From the NCBI RefSeq assembly GCF_047663525.1, contig NC_092600.1, forward strand, positions 6,777,501 to 6,841,500: a stretch of DNA of 64,000 bases, in the 5' to 3' direction. The stretch is from Anas platyrhynchos (Eukaryota > Chordata > Aves > Anseriformes > Anatidae). Numbering within the stretch: position 1 is the first letter of the stretch; each line of letters opens with the position of its first letter. The notes beneath the pieces were generated by a model. It was not told the DNA's origin. It saw only the letters and a list, made by a program, of their open reading frames with translations, and searched no databases. A program made the position numbers and the translations under genes. This document shows, in pieces, positions 17,401 to 64,000 of this stretch.

Positions 17401-18199
17401 AAAAACTGAAAGAGTTCAAATCTGGGGGGAAGAAAAACAGGATGAAAGGCAGTGGCTCAACACCGTGATTTAGGTGCTGGCTGCAAGGCTGCTGGAAAAG
17501 AGCAGGTGAAGCTGTGGGTACTCTTGCTGGCCGATTCACAGATGCTTGCCAACAAAGGGACAACGTGCTACAATCATAAATAAATAAAAAAGCAAACACA
17601 TACAGGGGTCACAGCAAGAGACTTTGAATAGGGGAACCACAGTGTGTGGTACCATAAATGTCATGCATGGACCTGGCCAGACACCATGGGGAAAGCTCAC
17701 CTGAGACTGGAGTAACTGGGAAATCAGTGGTGCAAGAAATCCTTTCCAGCCTCATCCTGACTATCCTATCCATCCCTGCCTATCAGTGGCATGCTGGTCA
17801 CAGTTACCCAAATGACACCTGAGCATGAAATGCCCTCTCTGGGGTGTCCAGGGGTTTTAATCGTGCTCGTCAGGTTTACCAGAATGTGGGATTGCCAAGG
17901 GCAAGGACAAGAGGGCTCTGCAATCCCTGGGCTGGGCAGCCCCATGTCCTCTTTCTGAAAACAGCCTTCCAAGCTGCCAGTCAGCCTGGGAAACCTCTTC
18001 TGAAAGCCAAGCAGGAAAGCAGGACAGAGAAGGGGCCAAGGACAGTGAGCTGGGATATTGGGAGGACAACGAACCGGCCATCAGTGCATGAGGAGCCCTT
18101 GCTTTGAGCCCTGGCAGAGCCAGCCCCAGCCACTCTCCAGGGAGGAGCAGGAGGCAATGCTCTGCAGGTGCTGCGGTGCCGCTTTCCTCATTTCTTCAG

Positions 18200-18500
18200 C
18201 TTCAGCTGCTCCCTGTGAATGTGCCGGCTCCATAAGCGAAGCCGTGCCACGGCGGCCCCCGCTGTCGGCATTGCTCGAAGGTGAGAGAAGATCCGTACGA
18301 GCACCAGGTTGGCTGGCAGAGAAGAGCCCGCCGCAGAAATGCTCCCGAGCCGACACGTGGGGCTGCCCCCGCACTTGGCAGGGAGGCAGGGAAGGGAGGC
18401 TTACGAGCGTAAATTGTACAGGAATAAAAAAGCAGCGTCCTTGTGCCAGTTGGCTCGGCGGCAGCGAGGTGCAGCGGGAAAAAGATGATTTTGTTTGGTG
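18200..18500. promoter_or_regulatory. Locally CpG-rich block in intergenic DNA
   Basis: CpG dinucleotides are clearly more frequent here than in flanking sequence (for example GCCACGGCGGCC, TCCGTACGAG, CTCGGCGGCAGCG). It could be an unmethylated regulatory element or the start of a non-coding transcript; a GGTGAGAG donor-like sequence lies near 18280. No coding evidence. Confidence 0.3.
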
Positions 18501-18656
18501 GGTTTGTCATCTCGCCGGTAGAGCCTGGCTGGTAATTGCTGCTTTTTAGCACTTTGAGGTGGATTGTGCAGTAAGGAGTGGGCTGTTTCCTACGGTGCCC
18601 TGATCCATAGATTGAGGAGCAGTAGCATTTTGTGGGGTCTTTCTGAAGAGCTCCAG

Positions 18657-18690
18657 AAAAAAAAAAATAAAATAAAATAAAATAAAAAAT
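18657..18690 (+). repeat. (AAAAT)n microsatellite
   Basis: A-run followed by four to five TAAAA units. Confidence 0.9.
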
Positions 18691-19319
18691 CAGATAAGCC
18701 AAGGCTGTGGCTGGCCCCATGGAGCATCTTTCAAGCATTTGGGTCTGAACAGCATGGAGCAGCATTCTTACCATGGGATATTTCTCTCACTGGCTGAGTG
18801 CTTTGCCATCCTGCCCTTTGCTACCTGTCATCTGTAAACATATTTTAATGAAAAAGAAAATCCCGGAGGTTGCTGATCCAGCTGTATCTTCATAAACAGC
18901 ACTTCTGGGCAGCACTGCAAAGGGCAGGAGCTGGGTGGCTGGTGAATATTGCACAGGTCCTGCTTTCACCTTGCACACGACAGCAAAAACCCTACCAAAA
19001 GAGGAGAGGAACAAGGAGGAAGATCTTGCCATGTCCAACCACTTGCATTTGAAACCAAGGTTGGGTCCTGTCAGTGGCAAAGGCCCCAGAAACACCCTCC
19101 TGCTCTAATTTACAGTCACAGCCATGCAGAGCTTTCTCTCCTGAGATGAAGGTGAGATAAAAGCAGCCGAGAGAGGACCTGCAGGAAAGATCACAGCGAG
19201 TTTTTGCCTGGGCACTTGAGCAAAACCCAGCTGCAGAGCTGGCAGATGCTGCCTCCTCGCGTGGCAAGGGCCAAGTGATGGCGATAATTGCCCCCCCAGC
19301 AATAGACTGACTATGTACA

Positions 19320-19430
19320 TTTAGGTTTCAATTAATTTGCTGGCTCTAAATAAACTGCCTCCTATTGCTTTCAGCAATCACATCTTGTTAATTGAAAATA
19401 GCGTTTATCTTATCTCTAGGAGAAGGCTGG
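19320..19430. promoter_or_regulatory. Candidate conserved non-coding block, AT-rich
   Basis: AT-rich non-repetitive sequence with CAATTAATTTG, TTAATTGAAAA and a GATA-type TTATCTTATCTC pair. No coding frame. Regulatory role is inference from motif density. Confidence 0.25.
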
Positions 19431-22400
19431 ACAAAAGTAGGGCAACAAAATTCAGTGTGGAGGTAGCATAAAGTGAAAGGAGGGGAAGGGAAGCTGAGGA
19501 GCAAGGCAGCCAGAGTGGCTGAGGGAAAAATTTCAGGATTTTTTTTTAAATTATTATTATTATTTCTCAGTGGCTACGATGTTTTTAGGCTGTCCTGGCT
19601 CAGAACAGGGTATTCTTTTCACCTGACCTCATTCAGCCTTGCTCACCCTGCACTCCCCAAGCACACCCCAGAAGACACCATCCCTCCTACCTTCACAATC
19701 AAGCAAACCCAAAAGCACACCTCCTGCCCCATTTCTGAAGGGAAACCATTTAAAAAGAAGGTCCCTGGCTTTGCTATAATGTTCAAGAAATGATCCCAGT
19801 TTCTTATCTCTAAAGGAAGTTGCAGAGTAGGTCCCTAAGACAGGATAACTATCACAGGCTCAGGTTTCATTTTTTTTCTCTTTCTTGGTCTGATTACTCA
19901 AAACCCCTCGTGAGGTTCTCACCACCAAAACCTAACATTATCTCACACACAGTCATCCCCCTCATTAAAGAGAAATCAGAGAAACTGACTTTATTAAATT
20001 TTAACACCCTGTGTAAAAAATCCTGCAATTAAAGCTTCTTGCCCCTGGGCCTTTGAAAGCGACATGTGGCAAATCCCCTCCAGCTTTTCATGAGCGTTGT
20101 GGCCTGTGGGGCTGGGAGAGGAGGCAGGGGAAGGAAAGCAGTAGGAGCATTAAGGCTTAAAGATGCTGAGAAACAAAAGATGAACCTTGGATGGATTTCA
20201 TGGTGGATTTCATTACCGCTGTAGCTTGGCCAGAGGGAAGAAAGTTTGCTAACCAAGCATTTAACTTTCTCATAATCAGGTGGGAACCACTGAAGACAGC
20301 TTGGTCCTTCCAGCTCCTTCTGAAACCTTGGGCAGGTCTCCTGATGTCTCAAGCACCTGATATGTCTCTGATGTTTTTGTGATTCAGACTCTGACATCTC
20401 TTGATCTGGGGCTAAAAGATTTATTTTTTGTTTTCATTCTTCTTCTTTAATACCAGCTTCTTCCAGGATGGCAAGAGACAGGGAACAAAGAGAGCCGTAC
20501 CAGAGAAGTCCCTGGTTTTGTGCACAGCCAGGTGAAACACAAACAGTGACGAACTGATGATGGACTAGAGCTCATTAGCATGAAAATCCTCAGAGGCCTC
20601 GTAAGGTTTCTCCTGTGAGTCTGCTGAAGTGATAACACTACTGGAAGTGACTTTTCCAGGAAAGAAATAGCCAACCAGGGACTATTGGTTTGATTGGATT
20701 GCAGCAAAGCTTCACATCAGGCCTGAAATACAGTCTGTGGAGCCAACAGGAGGCTGCTAGCAGACAAGACCGAGGCAGGACTCTGTGGTGTGGCTTTGCT
20801 TTTGCCCAGCTCCAGAGCCAGGGGAGGTGGGATGGGAGCTGCAAGTGGGCAGTGCAGCAGGTGGAAAGGCTTAGGGAATTTGCTTTGTGCAGGCTGAGAA
20901 ACCGAAAATTATGCAAACTGGGGAAAAAATGGGGAGCTTAAAATAGGTCTTGAATGGGTAAGTGGGAGAGCATTTCCTGGCCCCCTTCAGGAGGAGGAAG
21001 AGCCTGTCAGCCTCCATGGGCAATGTTTGGTAGCCATGTGGAGGGGCATTGCTGCCTCTGTGTGCATCCACGGAGCACAGAAATGCCACAGAAAGACTTT
21101 CTTATCGAGGGTTGCTGATCCAGTCTTCTCAGAGCACCCAGACACCCCCTCCTGCCTTCCCTTGACCAATTCTTCCATCACTGTCTTTCCTGTTACCTGT
21201 TCCTCTGCCAGGACCCCTGATCTCAGTGGGGAGGCAGCACTCAGCTCCGTAAGGAGACGTCTCCTGCGATCCCCAGGGCTGTGGGCAAGCGGCCCTCTGA
21301 CAGCTTGCGGGGGCTGCCCATGGTGTTTCCTGCTGCATCTCTAGTTCTCTCCTTGCCACCTAGTGTCTGCTTGTGTTAAAGACTCTGGTTTCTGCCCAGG
21401 ATTAAAACAATGCTTGTGCCTCTTGCACTTTTTAGACAATAAATATACGTATTTTTCTGTTGGCCTTTGTTGACTCAGAGGTCGGAGAGGACAGAATATT
21501 TCTGCTGACACCAGCCCCTCGCATGCTTTAAGAAGCAAAGTGCTGTGCGTGCATCTTTGTGGTGGGGGCAAGAAGGCACATTTCTCCAGGGGCATCTTGA
21601 AGCCTTTACAAAACCAGAGGAGAATACAGTTGCCCTTCAGCCCAAAGTCACCCAAACCTTGTGCAAGCCATCCAGATGTCATGCCCCAGCCACCACCTTT
21701 GCGCAGGGGACATTCCTCCTGGCCGTCCCTGGGCAGCCTGCACACTTCCCTCCCAAGGGCCACTCAGAGGAGTAAGGAAGACCATCCAAATTTAAAAAAC
21801 ATGAGGGTAAATGGTCGTGTGCCACCAGCAAAGCCCATGAGAAGTGCCCACACAGGACAGCACAAGGCACTCTGTCCCCTCATGCCCCATTTGTGACCCC
21901 ATGGCTCTTCAGCCAGCGGTGCCCTGCAGTAACAACTCACCCAAGAAGGACCAAGCCAGGAGGGTCCCTGCTTGTCCTGCCCAGTTGGTGGCTGTCTATG
22001 GGTGCCCTGGGCCCTTTCTATTCCAGAAAAAGCTGTTTTAGGGAGAGCTTTTTTTCTGTCTTTGCAGTTTCATCAGTTATTCATCAGTAACTTCAGACCC
22101 AGCTGAGTGGTCCGAGCACTTCGTGCCTCCTGTCCTCCAGCCCTCCCTTGGTACAAGTCTCTCCTTATCAGGGAAAAATAGTCCGTGGGCTTTTTGTCAC
22201 ACCAACAGGCTTCGCTCCCACCCCCAGGACTGCAGTTCTTCTGTGACTCCAGCAGCTTTTAATTTCCAAGGCAATTTAGCTTCGGGCAAAAAGCAATCGC
22301 ATCACCCCGGCCAGTGCCTGCAGCATCCTGTGCGCCTCAGCAGCCGCTCTGCCTGTCAGCTGCTGGGGGGAGATGCTCTGGGAGCCCCAGGCAGGCACCA

Positions 22401-34653: not shown

Positions 34654-45191
<10,538 letters not shown>

Positions 45192-45640
45192 CGCTGCTGC
45201 CCTTCAAAAGGAGCCGGGGAGCTGCTCCCAGGGCCGGCGGTGCGCGCACATCCCGGGAGCCGCCGCCGCCGGCCCCCCCCAGTGCCACCGGGCTCAGCCC
45301 ATCCTCCCCACCGGGGGGGCTGCAAAGGGCTGCGGAGCCCGGGCACGGCACGGTAGGGCACGGTAGGGCACGGCACGGCCGGGACACGGCTCCTACCGTG
45401 TGTCCCCCCCCCGTAACCGGCGGGGGCACCATTGGCTGCAGCCGCCGCTGCGCTGCGCCCGCCCCGCCCCGCCCCGGGCGCGTTTCGTAACGGGGAACGG
45501 GGCGGGGGACGGGGGGGAAAACGGGGTGCTAGGGGGCACCGGGCACCGAGGTGAGACCCGGGAGGGATGGGGGGATGAGGGGAGGATGGGGGATGCGGGG
45601 CCGGTTCCCGGTGTGGGGTGCTGGGGGGCTCTGGAGCAAG
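45192..45640 (-). promoter_or_regulatory. LONRF: GC-rich promoter/CpG island of the LONRF gene
   Basis: Very high G+C with many CpGs immediately upstream of the LONRF ATG, including consecutive GC-box-like CCCCGCCCCGCCCCG elements at about 45461-45475 (Sp1-type) and no TATA box that I can see. An ATTGG (CCAAT on the minus strand) lies near 45431-45435. The start site is not determinable from sequence. Confidence 0.65.
45341..45390 (-). repeat. Short tandem repeat in the LONRF 5' region
   Basis: Imperfect tandem copies of a GGGCACGGTA/GGCACGGCAC unit, all containing CpG, between the GC boxes and the start codon, so probably in the 5' UTR. Confidence 0.8.
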
Positions 45641-48600: not shown

Positions 48601-51600
48601 CTTTCAAGAAAACATCAGTATTTTCCCTTCTGAGTCACGCAGGCTTTGCCCAAGGCATCCTCATTCCTAGAGAAAGGCGCTGAGTGTCACATGGACCGGC
48701 CAGACACACTGCAGCGATGTGAGGCTATCGCAGTGCTCACGTAACCCTGCTTCTGCCTCCAGTCCTGGAAACCCGAGAGGCGAGTGGGGAGGGCCCCAGT
48801 CCCCGTCTGGCTCATTTTACTCTCTTGGGCCAAACGTCTTGGCAAAGAGGTTGATGGAATATTCTCACTCGGCCTTGGAGCACGTCCCACATTAAAAACG
48901 TGGAGAAAACCATGGGCATGTATGAGCCATGCTGGGTAAAAGCAAGGTCAGAATTGTCCCCGTTACCCTAGGACGGTCTGCAGGGCAGGATGCTGGGAGC
49001 TCGCAGTGATTCTCTGCAATCTCCACCCCCCCCCCACCAGCCTGATACCTCGGTGTCCTTCTCTAGCAAGGACAAAGAGCTCTTGTGAAGCCAGTGGGCC
49101 AAATTCCAGCTAAGCCCTGTATGTGAACACGACGGAGAAAGAAGCACCTCAAAGACTCGGAGCCGTGCAGAGGGCTTCAGGAAGATGCTGAGCAGCCCCC
49201 ATCCCCACACCCAGCGGTGGGGAGTATTAAACACATGGACAGTGCTAGATTTTGGGCAGGGCGAGCTGGGATACGCACGCCACAATTATAGCCCATTGCC
49301 TGGGGGCTTGCTGCAGCGCCGGTGGCCTGGGCAGAGCTTCTGCTTCCCCCACATCTGCAACCCTTTGCTCTGGGAGCAGCATTTCTGGCCATGCCATCTT
49401 CCTGTGTTGGTTTGCTTCCTCTCCCTGAAATTCAGACCTCAGGTGAACGGCCTTTGGGTACAGGAGCTGTGGACCCTTCCTCAGGGTCCAGCTGCTATTG
49501 CTCCACAGCTCTGTCACCCAGAAACTCATCCCAGCGGATCTGCTGGAGCAAACCACAGGTGTTCCTTCACAATGAGCCTGGTGCTGCTTCTTTGTGGATG
49601 TTATGAATGTGTCACAGTCAGGTTTTGTGAACAAATTCCCCTCTCTGCTCTTCTGAAGGAGCCAATGCAGGACTCTCAGAAGAAAGCATTTGCAGGGTTT
49701 GTCCACTTAGAGACATTTTTATGAAAAGGAATCCCAAGCACCACAGTGAATAAAGCTCTGGTATAACTTCCAGCTTTTAATTAACATGGCAGGAAGCCTT
49801 TAATTTCCAGATATTGAGAATGAGAGGACAAATTGCAGAAGGACTCAGCACGGGGAGTCTCCAGGGAGCAGGGGTGGGAGGAGAGATTTGACCTCCCAAA
49901 GCACCCTCCACTTGTGAGACACGTGTTCTGCTCTGGTTTTGCTTTTCTTATTATTCAGCACAAAAATAGAAGAGTTGGTTTGTAGGAAACCTCTGCCTGG
50001 CGCCCTGCAGAGATTAGTAGATCGTAAGCAGGGCTGCAGGAATCAGCTTTGCCGGGAAAGTCGGGATTTCTTACTGTTCCCACTTTTTGGTGGAATGAAA
50101 AAACAGCTTTGAAATTTTCCACGAAGAAGGCCACTTGGGAACAAAGGAAAGATCTCTGTTTGATCTCTACCTTAAGAGAGGCTTGTTTCCCTAACAGGAC
50201 ACGTTACATAACAAAACACCCATGTTTACTCAATGCAGCCCCTAAGTGCAAGATGGAAAATTTCAGAGCAAAATAAAGGTCTGACCTTACTGTCCTGAAA
50301 TTATCAATATTTAGAGAAAAATGCCTTAATTCGGGGCCATCTCTGCATGGAGTGGCATGGCAATCACTTCTTTCTCCATGCCCAGGGTCTCCTGGCACCT
50401 GTATCTCTGCAAGGCCCTGGGTGGCTATATGCCGTGCAGGGTCCCTGCAGCCACCCCTGGTGTGAGCAGGGGCAGCACAACCCTTCCTGCTGCCTCTGGG
50501 TGATTATATAAAGAGGATTAAACGTGTGTAAACAAGGCTTGCTTAAGTAACTTCACGGCTGCCAGTTTCTCTTGCTGGTCTTCTTTTCCTACTCCACCCC
50601 TCCACGAGCTGGACGTGACGGATGCTCAGCATGGCCCTGTCCATGCTCCACTCCCAGCTGGCCAAAGACACGTCCAGGGAGACCCAGGCTGAACTATGAG
50701 GGTGTTTCAAGCACGTTTGGTGGTTAAGCACCCCAGTGGAGCTAGATTTCATGTCCAGCAGTGCTAGGGAAGCTCTTGAGGCTGTGGGCAAGCACCAAGG
50801 TCACGCTGGGGGATACCCAGCTGTCCCCAGCCATGTCCCCCAGGACACCACTGTCCCCCACGGTGCTGCAGGGCTCGTCCTCAGCATCTCCAAAAGCCAA
50901 ATGTTTGGCCTACTTTGTGTCCCCTCCAATGAGGATTTTTAAAGCCCTAATCCAGGTAGCTGTCACGGATGCTCATGCTGTAAGTCCATTCATGTCACCT
51001 GGATTCAAGCCAGGGCTGAGACACAATGAGGAATTAGGGACTGCAGATAATTGGCGAAACCTCATCAGTTCAAATCAAGGCATCACTTGGGAACAGAGAG
51101 GAAGCACCCTGTATTTGCACAGAGCTTTGTGCAGTGGCCCAGAGCAGTGAACAAAACCCACAAACAGCAAGGCTGTCCCTGTCTTGGTGATCATCATCAC
51201 CCAGCAGTGTGGGGTTTATGTACACGTGCTGGCTCTGAGGACACGAAGCAATGGGATTTGGGGCAGTGTGAGGACGTGGCAAGCTCATTTGCAGACAGTT
51301 GCTTATAAAATTCAATGCTGGGAGCTGTGGCACAAGGTGCAGAGGCAGTTTTAGAGCTTTGAATCTCTTTAGCCCATCCCAGGGCAAGAAATCCACCATC
51401 AGGTGTAAAGAGATGCAGCACTGATCAGTTCCAACAGGGCACTGACAGGCACATTTGACCTCAGAAAAATGGCCTGGCACAGCACACTTGGGAAATTCCC
51501 AAAGTTAAAAAGCAAAGGTAGAGCCATCCCTTTCATGTTCAGGCACATTGAACTTATTCCCAGAGCTTCCCAACCTGCAAGAGTGTGGCCTGAGGGGAAT

Positions 51601-52565
51601 GCAAACTGCTCTGTGTGCTGTTTGGGAGTAGGCTGTGTCTTGTGCAAGGTTCTCGCATACTTGTGCACAAAGCAATGGAAGCCACAGGGGCCCCATGGCA
51701 CTATTTTACATCGGGGTGTCCCCGTTCATGTGAAACGTGGCACTTAAACTCAGCCTTCTGACAGCCAGTTTAGCTTTTGGCATTGGCTGTTTGTTTGCTC
51801 TACGTGTTTTCCCTTTAATCTCGGCGCTGGGTCACTAAGAAAACATTCCTCAGCATCGCTGCTGCTGCTTGCTGGGGTTGTACAGGAACCGGCTGCGTTC
51901 GCTCCCTGTCCTGCGGTTCTATGTAAAATCCTCCCCGGCGCTGACTGCTAACCCCAGTTTCTCTGAACTCTGCATTACCCGAGGAATAACGCCCTTCTGA
52001 GGAAGCCTTACCAAACAGCCGAGCGGTTACGAAACCCTGGCCCCTGCTGCCACACGTCCCAGCCCCGGTAGATGGCGGTGACAGCCCATTTTTCCCATTT
52101 TTTCCCCTTTTTCCTGGCGCTGCGCCCTCTCCCAGCCGCAGGCGGGTGTAGGGCAGGGGCATCCTCAGCCCCCCCTCTGCCGGCAGCCTGGCAGAAAGCG
52201 GGGTTTGGGGCTTTTCTCCCCCTATTCTGACTGCTTTTCGTATGGTTTGGGTTCCGTAGAAAATCACAGCAGGTTGTACCAGCTCAGCACAGCCTCGGGC
52301 AGCTGAAGCCGCCTGCTGCACAGCCCCGGAGCGAGAGGCACGGAGAGGACAGGGAGGGGGTTTCTTCATTTCAGGGGCCACCCAGAGCCAGGCAGCCAGG
52401 GCTGCTGGATTTCTCTCCATTCCCTTTCATGATCTTGAACAAAACCTGCTTGTGCTCCCCCAGATGCCAGCTCCCCATCACCTGCTTTTCCTTGGCCACG
52501 CAGCTCTGGGGAGGCAGCCAGCCAGCACGAATAAATAGCATCTCTCTTTGGAGCCCGCAAACTCT
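45641..52565. other. Intergenic region between the LONRF gene and the small acidic gene
   Basis: I see no coding exon that I can support. It contains the AAAAT/TTAAA repeat at 47086-47157 and an isolated minus-strand open frame at 46616-46930 (see findings). ORFs over 47.5-48.5 kb and 51.8-52.4 kb have no family features. Confidence 0.6.
47086..47157 (+). repeat. (AAAAT)n and (TTAAA)n microsatellite
   Basis: Units of TAAAA followed by units of TTAAA, about 70 bases in total. Confidence 0.93.
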
Positions 52566-52571
52566 TTTATT
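52566..52571 (-). terminator. Polyadenylation signal of the small acidic-protein gene
   Basis: AATAAA on the minus strand, 75 bases after the stop codon of the 69-residue frame. This short, well-placed 3' UTR supports the gene model. Confidence 0.6.
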
Positions 52572-52645
52572 TGGCTAAAAGCAGCCAGTCCCCCCTCCGA
52601 AGTGCTGCCACCAGCATCCCCACCTCCCGGGGGTGCACAGCAAGG

Positions 52646-53797
52646 CTAATCTGCGGCTTCCTTCTCATCGTCCTTGTCGCTGCTGTGCTCCTGGGGCTGG
52701 AGAAGAAAAGCAACACCAGGTGAGCGGAGTGCTGGGCGCCCCGTCCCCTGGTACCTCTAGATACCGAATGCCACCCTAAAACAGCACCCACATGGGGGCT
52801 GGGGGTGTTGGTGAGCAGTTTTGGGGATTACCTCCTCTGAGACGCTTTGGGAGCTGCTGCTACTCCTGTCGCCACCTTCTTCATCTCCCTGCAGGGGCAG
52901 AAGGAAGGATAAATGTCACCAGGGCCCCGACACCCCATTTGCCCCCCTTGGGATAGAGAGGTGGAAGGTTGCATGGAGAGCCAGGCTCTGTCCCCACAGT
53001 GCCACTGTGGATCCACGAGTGGACATCACCCTCTGCAGAGGCCTCCAGAGCTGAGAGCAAAGATTCAGTGGCCACCACGGTGTCTTGTCTGGGTTTAAAT
53101 GGGAGGAAAAAGAGGGAGAACTAACCAGGAACAGCAGGATCAAAGAGAGAACTGCCTCCCAGTGGAAAAGCCATGCACACGATGTGATTTCCAGGCTGCG
53201 GATGGCACAGCACCATCCACCAGAGGTGTGTGGATGCCATGAGTCACTGCAGCCAGGATGTAAATCAGGCAGGGCAGGTGGTTTCTAACAACCTACAAGC
53301 CCTGGCTGCCTCCCATGCCCTCTTGTACCATTTTTGGTACTCAGTGGGAAGCAGGGAGCTCTGCCCTGCGCACATCCCTGCTGTGCCCCTGTTCCCTGCA
53401 GCGCAGTGCTCAGGGTGCTGGGTGCCCCACAGGTGCTGCACAGCCATGGACATGGAGGTTCCCCAACACGGCTGGTTTGGGAAGTGCTGGGCTCACCCTG
53501 AGCACCGTGCTGGAGACTTTGGGGCTGGAAATCCTCTGGGAAATGGTTCAGCAGCCAATCTGTGAAAAGCTCCATCATTCTCCTACCTTTTCCTCCTCTT
53601 TCTCCTCCTCCTTTTCTTTCTCTTCTTCAGCGCCCTTCTCCTCTCTCTCCTTATCTTCCCGTCCAAACCCTACAACAGACACAGGTTGAGGGTCATTACC
53701 AGCAGCACCCAGTACACGCGCACCCATCGGAGGGGGCTGCAGGTCCCCTTCCCACCCCAGCTCCCACTGGACACTCACATTTCAGGATTGTCGACAT
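52646..53797 (-). CDS. Small acidic protein, 69 aa, four coding exons, unrecognised
   Basis: Coding exons (minus strand): 53797-53779, 53669-53587, 52888-52832 and 52696-52646. Each junction is GT-AG (donors GTGAGT, GTAGGA, GTAATC; acceptors TAG, CAG, CAG), and phases match (1, 0, 0). The ATG sits 42 bases into an exon whose acceptor is at 53840-53842; an in-frame TGA lies 13 codons upstream and G is at -3. The product starts MSTILKWFGRED, continues with a Glu/Lys block (residues 11-34), a Ser run (43-47) and an acidic C-terminus ending EAAD. Composition: 21 Glu, 7 Asp, 9 Lys, 3 Arg, 10 Ser. It should be disordered and strongly acidic, with CK2-type serines (SVSEE, SSDKDDE). There is no signal peptide or membrane segment. 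I do not recognise a family and assign no function. Confidence 0.72.
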
Positions 53798-53839
53798 TTC
53801 ACCGCAGCCAAAGGGCTCTGGGGCACGAGGTGCTCACAC
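53779..53839 (-). other. Exon carrying the start codon of the small acidic-protein gene
   Basis: The acceptor CTCTCTGTGCCACAG precedes 53839 and the donor GTGAGT follows 53779. The 42 bases before the ATG contain an in-frame TGA, which rules out an N-terminal extension in this frame through this exon. Confidence 0.6.
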
Positions 53840-55172
53840 CTGTGGCACAGAGAGGAGCGACCGGAGGGGAAATAACGTGGGCTTTTCAGGGATGAAGATA
53901 CCTTCCTGGTCCCCACCGTTTGGTTTTCTCTTCAAATATGCAGAGAGATGCCTTAAGACCACTTCCAAACCCACCTAGGAGCAAGTGAAAATTAAAGAAA
54001 TATTTAAAACATTTAAAAATGAGAGTAAAGACCACTATTTTGAGCTCTTGGGAAACCACAGCGGAGAGGAGACCTTCCCCAGGGATGGGACAGTAGCAGG
54101 GAGGGAGACAGAGACAGCAGTGAGCAACAGTGAGAAAACTCCAAGCATTGATTAATGCTTGAAAGGTGACAGATGGCAAAGAAAGCAGATCAAAAGAAAG
54201 CCAACAGCTTTCTTTAAAAATAGCAAAAACAAACAAAATCCAAGAAATAGCACAGGCAGGTCAAACCCTCTCTGTCACACACAAAGAGCAAAATTGCCAC
54301 TTGTGGCAGAGGGAAGGAGCAGGGATGAGGGAATGGGTTCCTTCTGCTGGCAGGGAAAAACAGGGTCATTGTTTGGGCTCAGCACACAATTAGGGCACAG
54401 TTTCTGCCCCGGCCACCGATGGGGGGAGGCAGGATATTAATGCTTTCAATTAATGTTTTTAAGCCCACAAAATGACACCATCTTGTGATCGGGATTTGCA
54501 CCCTTGAAGGAAGCAGACAGCCTCCGGGATGATAACACTGATGTGTATTTTGTAAGCAGTTGTAAAAGCCACGGGATGCTGCGGGGCTGGGGTAGCTTTG
54601 GGGCAGAGGCAGGCGGGATGGGCAGAAAGCAGATAGGGACAGATAAAAGGTTCTATCAGCGCCGAGTTAAAATCTAATTAATAATGAATAGCCACCTAAT
54701 TCATCTCCGTAATTAAGAAGTGCAACTCCTAATTGAAAATAATTACTTTTTAATCTAAAATCATTAAAAATAATCAAACATTAGCAAAAAGAAGAAAGGC
54801 AGCCCCTAGGAAGGTGTATGAGACGGTGCAGCTGATTCCCTGCTGTGGGATCCTGCACCAAAGCTCCTCCGTGCCCCACATCTCGTGCCCAGCCCCATAT
54901 CCATGGGGTGCCCCCACATCGTGCCTCGGGCATCCTCTTGGAGGAGTTTGCCTGCTCCTCTCAGCGGGGAGGACCGAAGCCCTTCCTAGCGAGGATGAGG
55001 CACCACATCCCATCTCCATCCCTCAGACCACCCAAGAGCTGTCCTGGGGATGCTCCTGCCACAACCCCCTGCTTCAGCCCACGTTTCCCCTCCTCTTCCC
55101 CAGCCCCTAAAATCGATAAGGCAATCTGTAAGCCCCCCCCAGTGTACATGGAGGAGCAGGGAAGTGCCTTAC
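53840..55172 (-). other. Putative 5' UTR intron of the small acidic-protein gene, with a TAAT cluster
   Basis: About 1.3 kb without coding sequence. It includes the dense TAAT block at 54661-54780 listed separately. Confidence 0.35.
54661..54780. promoter_or_regulatory. Dense TAAT/ATTA cluster, candidate homeodomain-responsive element
   Basis: Nine TAAT and about four ATTA cores lie in 120 bases, set in non-repetitive AT-rich sequence (CTAATTAATAATG, CCTAATTC, CGTAATTAAG, CCTAATTG, AATAATTAC, TTTAATC). Function is inference. Confidence 0.35.
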
Positions 55173-55320
55173 CCACAGCAGGGACGGGCGAGCGGCCTCC
55201 TCCACGCCTGGCTGGCAGCGCGCAGGGCCCCGGCTATTTGAGTGTCGCCGTCTCCTCCCCAGCCCCACTTTCGGGGCAGTAAAACTGGCTCTGCCGCCCT
55301 CCCCGGCCACCACCCGACGC
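55173..55320 (-). promoter_or_regulatory. Possible 5' non-coding exon and promoter of the small acidic-protein gene
   Basis: A CpG-containing stretch on the minus strand ends in a strong donor CTGTGG|GTAAGG at 55172. It could splice to the acceptor at 53840. No TATA box is evident. The link is inferred from position and splice sites only. Confidence 0.35.
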
Positions 55321-58235
55321 CCAGAACGTGACCGGTGCTCTTCACACCCGTGAGAGCCTCGCAGACATCTCTGCCTCCAGCGTGGGCAGGAGCACCCAGC
55401 ACCTTCACCCTCTGCCAGCAAGCCAGGGCGGCTCCGCTGGCCGCAGGGGACCTGCCCCAGGGTCCTGCTGCAGTCAGGACCATGTTTGATGTAAAATGGA
55501 CTGGATTTGGGGGTGTCCTAAAAGCCGTGGTGGCAGGAACCTCCACCAGGTCCTTTCTCTCCCCTCCATGGGGAGGTGGCAGGAGTATCGGGCCCAGGCA
55601 TGGCTGCTCGGTGCGAGGCAGGGCTCAGCACTCCCAGCTCCTTCTGGTGCTCGTCCTTGCCGCTGGCTTTCGCCCCGACACATCATTAAGCAAGTGTCTG
55701 TCAGCAGAGAGCAGTTACCAGCAGGTCTTAACACTTGCATAATGTGCTTCCCCTCTAACGCAATGCCCTCGTTCCTAATAGCACCAATATGGGATAATAA
55801 CAGGAACAATAATGGCAAGAAGGGCTTGTGTACCTGAAAGCTAATTTGTTTTCTCCACCTAATAAAAGGCATTACCTCTCCCACAAGATTTGCTCCATTT
55901 AAACCCTTCAACTCCACAGCAAAGTTGCTCCCGCTGTAATTTTACAGCTGAAATTGCTGCGCACGTGGTGTCCCCAACTCTGAGCGAGACTGACCCCGGT
56001 ACTGCAGAGGGGCAGGCACACAGGTCATCCACCCCAAAACCTGCACAGCTCTGCCCCAAATACAGCTAGGTTAGATCAGGACCTAGCTGTCCTAAAGGAG
56101 GGTTTTTTGAGGGAAAGGGTGGATAAAACCTTTGAGGACTCCTCTTGAGTGGAGGAGTTTAGGAAGGCTGGTGGCAGAGTCCTCACTCCTGCAAGTTTCA
56201 GGAGCAGTAGCGGTTGTGTTTGCTAGCAGAGATGCTGCAGTTGATGCACAAATCATTCATGGAAATGTTTGGGAATGAGCGACCACAGTAATCCTGCCCA
56301 GATCTAGGCACCTTGGGCAAGGATGGGGACAGAGAACACAGCACTGGGTCCCCAGCAGCACTGGGGAGGATTTTTGGTGTCAGGAATGGCTGGAATCCAA
56401 TCCTGCTCATCCCAACAGCTCCTGCCACCTCCTTAGGAGGATCCACCCCTCCAAGCACTGCACTTGACCTTGTTTTTAAACGCTGACCCCAATGCAGCAG
56501 CTGCTGCTCCTTGCCAGCCCCAACCAGGCGCTCAAAAACCACTCAGCATCCTCCAGCCAGAGCAGCCCAGGGCCCAGGGACACGAAGCATCACCCTAGGG
56601 AAAGCTCTAGAGACCTCCCCAGCCAGCAGCACCTCACAGCACGGTGCTGGTTGCCACCACCACCAGGACACGGGACGGGGGCAGTCACTTCCATGTCCAA
56701 GCCCCAGCCCACACGCGAGCTCAGCTCTCACCCAGCAGCAGGCACAAATCTGCCCTCAAAGAATAGAAGGGAACCTCGCAGCCAGCACCCAAAACACCAG
56801 CACAAGGCTGCGGCTGAGCTGCTGTCAAAGTGTAGAGCTGCGAGGGCCTAGCAACACCCCCAGAAAACGTTAATTAGCACAGTACTGGGCATTTACGCCC
56901 TCCCACGCTAGATCTTTTATCTGTGCCAAGGAGCCCTTGGCTACAGAAGACCAATCTTTCTGCTTAAATCACATCGCTGTCGACAGCTGCTTATTTATGA
57001 TCTGGTGTGCACACCTGGGAAAGAAATGCCAAGGCTTTCCTCCTCCTCCTGCCCTGAGCTCTCCCCTTCCTGCCTCTGAGTCAGAGCGTTTAATTCGTAC
57101 TGCGGGTGACCTGGGATAGCTGTCCCCTTGCTCACAGCCACCAGCACTCCTGGCAGCGTAGCTCCTGCTTCTTCCACAGGAGCAGGACAACTGCTCATCG
57201 TGCCTGTGTCAGAGGTTTTGCTGCTGCTGAACGTGTGTGTTTTCCTAATGAAAAAAATGAGTCCCGGGGAAGCTGGCTGGGAGCACATCCCTCAGCCCAC
57301 CGGGAGGACCGAGCCTTTTTTATGTTTTAAAGCTTTCCACGGCAGCTGCCAGGAAGCAGCTTTTACAGCTGCAAGTAACGGGCTCTCTCTCCTAAGGAAA
57401 GAAAATAATTGTGGCTTTTTTCTCCTCCCAGTCACTGCCAGCATCTTAGCTAACTCTTATCTATTCTCAGCCACCTCTCACCTCCCCAAACACAACCAGA
57501 AGTGCTCAAATTACTGCCAGCTCTCATTAGGTTCATGAGCAAGGCGAGGCCAAGCAATAAGACCTCCAGACAGTTGGATGCTGAGTTCTGATGAATCCTT
57601 TGGGTAGGAAGATTTCAACTGTATGACTGTTCTTGCTGGCAGACTACTGCAGTCTCTGCACTGGCACCCACGCGAAGCCGGTTCACGCTTCGTTACTGGC
57701 TGCTATAACAAAATCCAGGTGAGCATATGACTGAAAGAATTACCATCTGCATCAAAAAAAAAAAAAAATCACCTCCTTGCCTTTAATTATTAAACTACTC
57801 TACACTTAAGCACTGCAGGTCAACTTGGGTTGACAATTTATCTGGGGAAAAAAAAAGCAGCTGCTGCTTCAGAAAACTCTGTTATCATTATTCTTTCTCT
57901 TCTGACATTTCTGTAAAATGTGGCTTTGTGGCAGGAGCCAAGCTGAGATTTTGCACTGATGCAGGAATTCAGAGCTCAGCTGTGGACGCTCTCACTCCCC
58001 AGCCAGGGTTTAGAACTCTTTTCTATGAAAGGATACCCTGCCATGAGAGAGACCCCAGTTGTCTCTGCCCCACAGCAGCACCACGCCCTGCCTCAGAAAC
58101 TGGTCAGGGGTGTGAAGAAAGCACACACAGTTCTTTCCTCCTGCTTGGTTAGTGCCCCACACTACCTTGATAGCTCTTACCTGAAACAGTTGTCAAAACA
58201 AATCTTTTTTAAATGTTATCAGTGTAAATAAAAAG
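55321..58235. other. Intergenic region between the small acidic gene and FAM114A2
   Basis: No coding exon I can support; short A-runs at about 57754-57767 and 57846-57855. It ends at the most distal plausible polyadenylation signal of FAM114A2. Confidence 0.6.
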
Positions 58236-58242
58236 TATATAG

Positions 58243-59649
58243 TTTATTTAGTGAGATTTTTTCCCATCCTATCACACTCCTTTCAAGTCCAGTTTTCTTT
58301 AAAAATTAAAATAAATACTTTACATTTAGAGACCTTATCAGTCTAACAAGGACTAAGGCAAGGGTTTTTCCATATATGTATAAAATTGGAGAAGCATTAG
58401 CCAAAAAGTGTTCTAATATTAAGGACATTTCTACTGCACAACAGAGCAGAGGAATGCTAAGCCTTCAGTACTGCAGAAATTTGCAAGACCCGCTAAAACC
58501 AACACTCAGTCACCTCTGGTTTGCTGTTCTGGACTTAAGCTGCATTTAATCTGTGTTTCTGCTCTTGTGATTCCATCAGAGGCTGCTCCCTCAGAATGGT
58601 TAAGCTCAAAAGATAGGAATTGTAAAAAGGAACAGAATAGGGAACTTTCACAGCACAAAAAAAAGATAGATTATGTGAAGCAGCTTCTGAGACAAATTAG
58701 GACTCCTGCTAACAGAACCAAATTGCTTCTTCTCCCCCTGCTTTCATATATCTTCCAAAAAGGAGCATTACATTATAGTGTTTTTGCAAAGAAATGGAAA
58801 AGAGTGGTATCTGAATCTGAACAGTCTGTGGCTGACATGTCAAATTGCATTAAAAAAAAAAAAAAAAAAAGAGAATCCTCCCACTCCATTCTTGCATTGG
58901 ATTGCCCAAAGAAGAATCAATCCTTTTTAGCCAGTTCTCATTTATTGCTATAAAGCAAAGTACCCACATTCTTAGGGCCAGATCAGCATTTTTCCAGCTC
59001 ATGCTGAAGCAAGCATTCTGCAAGAGGATGAGTAACAGCACCCTAGTGAGAGTCCCAGTCCCACATCCCTGAGTCATTAGCAGACACCTTTAGGAAGCTG
59101 GGGCTTCTCTTCAGCAACAACAGCTCCATAAGGCATCCTCTCCGTTCTATTCTTTCCAGCCTGGAAATTGCAAGGGTGATAATCATAAACTTTAGCCTTT
59201 TCTTGCATCTCCAATCCAAAGTTCACTTCAACGCAGAGCTTTCAGGAGCCTAATTATGTCTGACTTAAAAATCACACCATGACTTTAGCTAACTCTTTAA
59301 CTAGCCAGCTGCTGCTCTTTTCTCCAGCATTGTCTCCACAGTCCAGAGAGCTTCTCCAAAGAGCTTGTTAACACATACAGCACAGGGATTTCAGTGAAAA
59401 GATACAGTCTATGAAAACAGGGAAGCAGTCTGCATTGTAAAGTCTGTCACGTTGTCCACCAGCCTGGACTATGCTAATCACATTTCTCAACGAGCTCTAA
59501 GAGCTGTCATTGCCAGACTGCACTTAATCACTGTTCTTGCAGTAGCAGTGATCAGTTAATCTTTTTCCCTTTAATATCAGCCATTACATCATTCTCCAGC
59601 ATGGAAAATACGAAGTGGGAAGGTCGAAAGTTCTTAATTAGAAGGATTT
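58243..59649 (-). other. FAM114A2: FAM114A2 3' untranslated region with several polyadenylation candidates
   Basis: AATAAA on the minus strand occurs at 59654-59649 (overlapping the stop codon), 58946-58941 and 58248-58243. The distal ones would give 3' UTRs of about 0.7 and 1.4 kb and are more plausible than the one in the stop codon. A-runs of about 20 lie at 58852-58870. Confidence 0.5.
58852..58870 (+). repeat. Poly-A tract
   Basis: Run of about 19 A on the + strand, within the predicted FAM114A2 3' UTR (poly-T in the transcript sense). Confidence 0.9.

Positions 59650-64000
<4,351 letters not shown>

Follow-up and report, generated by a model that had tools for sequence, protein, structure and literature searches.

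The window analyzed here is a 64,000-nucleotide stretch of DNA (C14:6777501-6841500) from a source genome of 1.26 Gb in 42 contigs, and coordinates are given as positions within it. The candidate gene described below sits between a LONRF-type gene and FAM114A2, with all three on the minus strand. A probable GRIA1-type exon, recognized in the list of open reading frames (ORFs), is located near 4.2 kb on the plus strand; Pfam returned no match on the GRIA1 piece of the window.

The LONRF-type gene occupies approximately 35700 to 45210 on the minus strand, and Pfam identifies in it two pieces of RING domain and two of LON domain. One of its LON exons matches four places in the genome, on C14, C4, C10, and C1. 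Mammals have three LONRF genes, and the copy located between GRIA1 and FAM114A2 may be a fourth paralog that mammals have lost.

The exons from 63.1 to 59.65 kb on the minus strand, named by eye, are presumably the C-terminal exons of FAM114A2. The Pfam match to this C-terminus is sub-threshold only; the FAM114 assignment is backed by DUF719 exons just beyond the window on the same strand (C14:6842429-6844799), which have a paralog on C4. LONRF-type and FAM114-type genes are present both on C14 (near 6.84 Mb) and on C4 (51.0-56.3 Mb, approximately 5 Mb apart), an arrangement that resembles an old duplicate block.

Exon Structure and Processing Signals

The candidate consists of four coding exons on the minus strand, joined through GT-AG introns into a frame of 69 codons with no internal stops. 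The predicted product is MSTILKWFGRED...EKEAAD. An earlier note on this DNA had described four exons joining without a frame break into 69 residues, 28 of them acidic and 12 basic, and this assembly was reproduced. The coding introns (53778-53670, 53586-52889, and 52831-52697) and an optional upstream junction (55172/53840) agree to the base with the junctions it had given. Splice sites were scored with matrices of textbook-type frequencies rather than ones trained on this genome, and the scores below are in bits on that scale.

A possible non-coding exon 1 (55173..55212) ends at the donor GTAAGG at 55172, which scores 7.8 bits. Its 5’ end is a guess placed near 55212. The region at this exon (55201-55400) has a GC content of 0.69 and an observed/expected CpG ratio of 0.71, and a weak TATA-like sequence, CAAATAG, can be seen by eye upstream.

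The possible first intron (53840..55172) includes an AT-rich stretch at 54560-54820. This stretch contains homeodomain-type motifs (TAATTA and CAATTA) and by eye is like a conserved regulatory element. It has no second copy, as a genome search returned the self-match alone.

The exon carrying the end of the 5’ UTR and the start codon (53779..53839) has an acceptor of 10.1 bits and a donor, AAT/GTGAGT, of 8.9 bits. The start codon is at 53797-53795, and the exon supplies the first 19 coding bases. An in-frame TGA (53836-53834) lies 13 codons upstream of the ATG, and the assumed 5’ UTR, counted from the guessed start near 55212, contains no earlier ATG.

Coding exon 2 (53587..53669) is 83 nucleotides in length and is a purine run encoding a Glu/Lys-rich segment. 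It has a weak acceptor of 5.3 bits and a donor of 8.5 bits. Coding exon 3 (52832..52888) is 57 nucleotides in length and encodes GDEEGGDRSSSSSQSVSEE, with an acceptor of 13.1 bits and a donor, GTAATC, of 6.2 bits. The last exon (52566..52696) has an acceptor of 12.3 bits and contains 48 coding nucleotides and a short 3’ UTR. The stop codon TAG (52648-52646) and the poly(A) signal AATAAA (52571-52566) are separated by 74 bases. Both the upstream in-frame stop and the AATAAA past the stop codon had been claimed before and are present as described. The frame is shorter than 100 codons and has a start, a stop, and splice signals, as would a small-ORF (microprotein) gene of a vertebrate. The candidate may already be annotated as an uncharacterized LOC entry.

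Another reading is that these exons belong to the upstream FAM114A2, either as 3’ exons used alternatively or as a tail reached by read-through. The strand is the same, the FAM114A2 coding end (approximately 59650, by eye) falls approximately 4.4 kb upstream of the candidate’s first possible exon, and the DUF719 exons are just outside the window. FAM114A2, however, has its own terminal exon and stop, while the candidate has a GC-rich, raised-CpG stretch at its own possible first exon and an in-frame TGA ahead of its ATG. An origin as part of FAM114A2 is therefore considered highly improbable.

Predicted Protein and Searches for Relatives

The predicted protein has a mass of 7.9 kDa, a pI of 4.33, a net charge of −16, and no Cys. 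Its acidic residues are 7 Asp and 21 Glu (together 41% of the sequence), and its basic residues are 9 Lys and 3 Arg. A sequence this rich in Lys and Glu would yield few tryptic peptides suitable for mass spectrometry. It begins with a hydrophobic and aromatic patch, ILKWF (residues 4-8), continues through a Glu/Lys-rich middle, and ends in a Ser/Asp/Glu tail. Two CK2-type sites are found, at S49 and S59. From its composition, the protein is probably disordered. A single alpha-helix was considered and rejected. Opposite charges spaced i,i+4 across residues 11-34 were matched by 17,473 of 20,000 shuffles; these pairs are no better than shuffled, so a designed single helix is unsupported.

In the mode of action that seems likeliest, the aromatic N-terminus would dock on a partner or a membrane, and the charged, phosphorylatable tail would present a polyanion to cations or basic partners. 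A specific docking mechanism of this kind is doubtful at best.

A Pfam search with the 69-residue protein returned nothing above noise, the matches being far below threshold (Paf1, E 1.4; Atrophin-1, E 4.6; CobT, E 7.9). No match was found in the PDB at E up to 10. A search of the same genome, also at E up to 10, returned only three of the candidate’s own exons, and therefore no close paralog or processed copy was seen. The earlier note knew of no family with this beginning, and this is borne out as far as Pfam, the PDB, and this genome go.

Rfam gave nothing at gathering scores for positions 51800-56000. When positions 49200-64000 were scanned in six frames against Pfam, with stops written as X, no family was flagged at E of at most 0.1; the scan says little, since the FAM114A2 C-terminal exons within it also went unflagged. 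Literature searches with the candidate’s peptide strings found no paper in the library searched. One SNP row of PMC12649552, which places chicken GRIA1 on chromosome 13, lists FAM114A2, GRIA1, and MFAP3, with no entry for a small gene.

Splice-Site Strength and Competing Sites

The exons of FAM114A2 served as a reference, with five donors scoring 7.2-10.0 bits and six acceptors scoring 6.6-12.7 bits. Six of the eight candidate splice sites are within or above these ranges. The two exceptions, the acceptor at 53669 and the donor at 52831, are below every FAM114A2 acceptor and donor scored.

Three competing sites were identified. A donor at 52791 scores 6.4 bits, against 6.2 bits for 52831, and is preferred by the chain search described below. 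Its use shifts the frame and replaces everything after SVSEE with another tail of 23 residues, for a total of 76 residues. A donor at 53974 scores 8.1 bits, against 7.8 bits for 55172, and is also preferred by the chain search; it alters the 5’ exon. A tandem acceptor at 52690 (11.6 bits) results in the in-frame loss of two residues. The first exon and one donor of the candidate are ambiguous. The form using donor 52831, as given in the earlier note, is kept as the main model because the acidic frame continues through it.

Comparison of the Exon Chain with Chance

A chain search was used to find, in each segment, the best combination of a UTR intron and four coding exons with an open frame, a purine at −3 of the ATG, and a poly(A) signal no more than 250 bases away. 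The candidate chain scores 72.1 bits, and its coding introns alone score 54.2 bits. Among 600 dinucleotide shuffles of positions 52001-56000, none reached 72.1 bits and two reached 54.2 bits for the coding introns alone. The same counts (0/600 and 2/600) were obtained when the purine interior of coding exon 2 was held fixed.

Real DNA was compared in the same manner, using segments that overlap one another. When the window was cut into 4-kb segments at 1-kb steps on both strands, 10 of 122 scored at least 72.1 bits. Each of these 10 overlaps at least one of the LONRF-type gene, FAM114A2, and the candidate, although some of their chains draw on sites outside known exons. None of the window segments clear of these three genes reached 72.1 bits. 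The best chain lying in neither a known gene nor the candidate (17418-19922, minus strand) scores 70.4 bits and is probably a chance assembly.

Control segments of 4 kb were taken from 20 stretches of the same chromosome, which include some real genes. Six of 160 scored at least 72.1 bits. Two of these are recognizable as genes (RPS14-like and DDX46-like), and the other four were not recognized as genes. With six controls at this score and two of them recognizable, the false-positive rate for structure alone is a few percent per segment. Chains of this kind are commoner in real DNA than after shuffling, and therefore the exon structure alone is suggestive and is not proof.

The candidate could accordingly be read as non-genic DNA in which splice-like, start, and poly(A) signals happen to line up. 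This reading draws on the four control segments (4/160) that equal the score without a nameable gene, and on the two shuffles in 600 that match the coding-intron score. It is opposed by the lack of any segment at 72.1 bits elsewhere in the window clear of known genes, by an acidic frame that is coherent across exons, and by C followed by G being more common in the coding exons than in the introns (the last two are described in the next section). A chance chain is judged unlikely. The earlier note had held that a chance assembly with all of these properties is improbable; for the splice signals alone this was overstated, given the 4/160 control segments with equally good chains and no recognized gene. 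The candidate is probably more than chance on the basis of its frame composition and, less firmly, its CpG contrast, and not on the basis of its splice scores.

Frame Acidity and CpG Content

The spliced frame is acidic in every coding exon past the first. In coding exon 2, 75 of 83 bases are purine; purine runs give an open, Glu/Lys-rich frame regardless, so the composition of this exon weakens the case. Coding exons 3 and 4 contain 6 acidic residues of 19 and 7 of 16, respectively, while the other two frames of each contain 0 or 1.

The comparison set consisted of stop-free frames matched for purine content, taken from the 20 control stretches together with three regions of the window. Frames equally acidic were found in 30 of 2347 cases for coding exon 3 and 7 of 4174 cases for coding exon 4, in overlapping samples and with the last coding interval running two bases too far. 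Across the distinct best chains at least 40 residues long, 253 in all, the acidic share has a median of 6% and a 99th percentile of 16%. The highest share, 28%, belongs to the candidate itself with its alternative tail, compared with 41% for the main form.

Within the candidate’s coding exons, 8 of 31 C bases are followed by G, compared with 16 of 275 in the intervening introns (p = 0.001). Counted per base, again with the last coding interval two bases too long, the CpG difference between coding exons and introns has p = 0.064. The non-coding 3’ flank has a fairly high observed/expected CpG ratio of 0.46. FAM114A2 has a C-then-G contrast in the same direction (8/117 and 20/527) that is non-significant (p = 0.21). 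Both the acidity and CpG contrasts measure composition within one genome, not conservation. Such compositional features are better evidence for the candidate than its exon structure.

The acidity also bears on whether the locus produces a spliced, polyadenylated non-coding transcript, in which the open frame would be a by-product of purine-rich exons. On the transcript strand, purines make up 69-90% of each of coding exons 2-4, a composition that favors open Glu/Lys/Arg/Gly frames, and the rival donor at 52791 breaks the acidic frame. Acidity at the level of exons 3 and 4 is uncommon, however, even among the purine-matched frames, and no ATG precedes the proposed one in the assumed mRNA. A non-coding transcript is an improbable explanation, on a par with a chance chain.

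Discussion

The candidate is rather likely to be a real small protein-coding gene. It would be a gene of the host chromosome, on the minus strand, with a non-coding exon 1 followed by four short coding exons. The earlier note had read it as a small spliced gene, and this is still the likeliest reading: the chain scores level with segments that overlap known genes and the exons share an acidic frame, set against two weak splice sites. A more extended reading, in which birds or sauropsids at large have retained the gene between LONRF and FAM114A2, mammals lack it, and its tiny polyanionic product with ILKWF as an N-terminal docking motif founds a new protein family, is tentative and rather unlikely.

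Genes with tiny exons whose products are very short, disordered, and low in complexity tend to be overlooked by annotation pipelines. If the candidate is confirmed, a protein without recognized relatives would join a well-studied gene block. Confirmation would also suggest that, when a single genome is available, exons that agree in composition are a more useful clue than splice scores. The general picture would be unchanged.

One comparison is with chicken MPD-74aa (PMC13220464), a 74-residue frame in a transcript first called non-coding that has support from Ribo-seq, western blot, and mass spectrometry. The candidate is likewise a bird open frame of similar length, predicted from the DNA sequence. 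MPD-74aa comes from a different transcript, and the main text of PMC13220464 contains no mention of GRIA1, FAM114A2, or chromosome 13; the two are likened by description.

Among its neighbors, the candidate shares a strand and gene block with FAM114A2 and the LONRF-type gene, and its splice sites are mostly similar in strength to those of FAM114A2. Unlike a relative of either gene, it has no sequence in common with them that was found in the genome search at E up to 10.

Prothymosin alpha and parathymosin are small, acidic, disordered nuclear proteins that are Glu/Lys-rich and encoded by several small exons. The candidate differs from them in its aromatic N-terminus (ILKWF) and its Ser-rich stretch, and no thymosin-type family profile was listed for it in Pfam at E up to 10. 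Like these proteins, the candidate product is short, very acidic, low in complexity, Glu/Lys-rich, free of Cys, and encoded by several small exons, which is a resemblance rather than membership.
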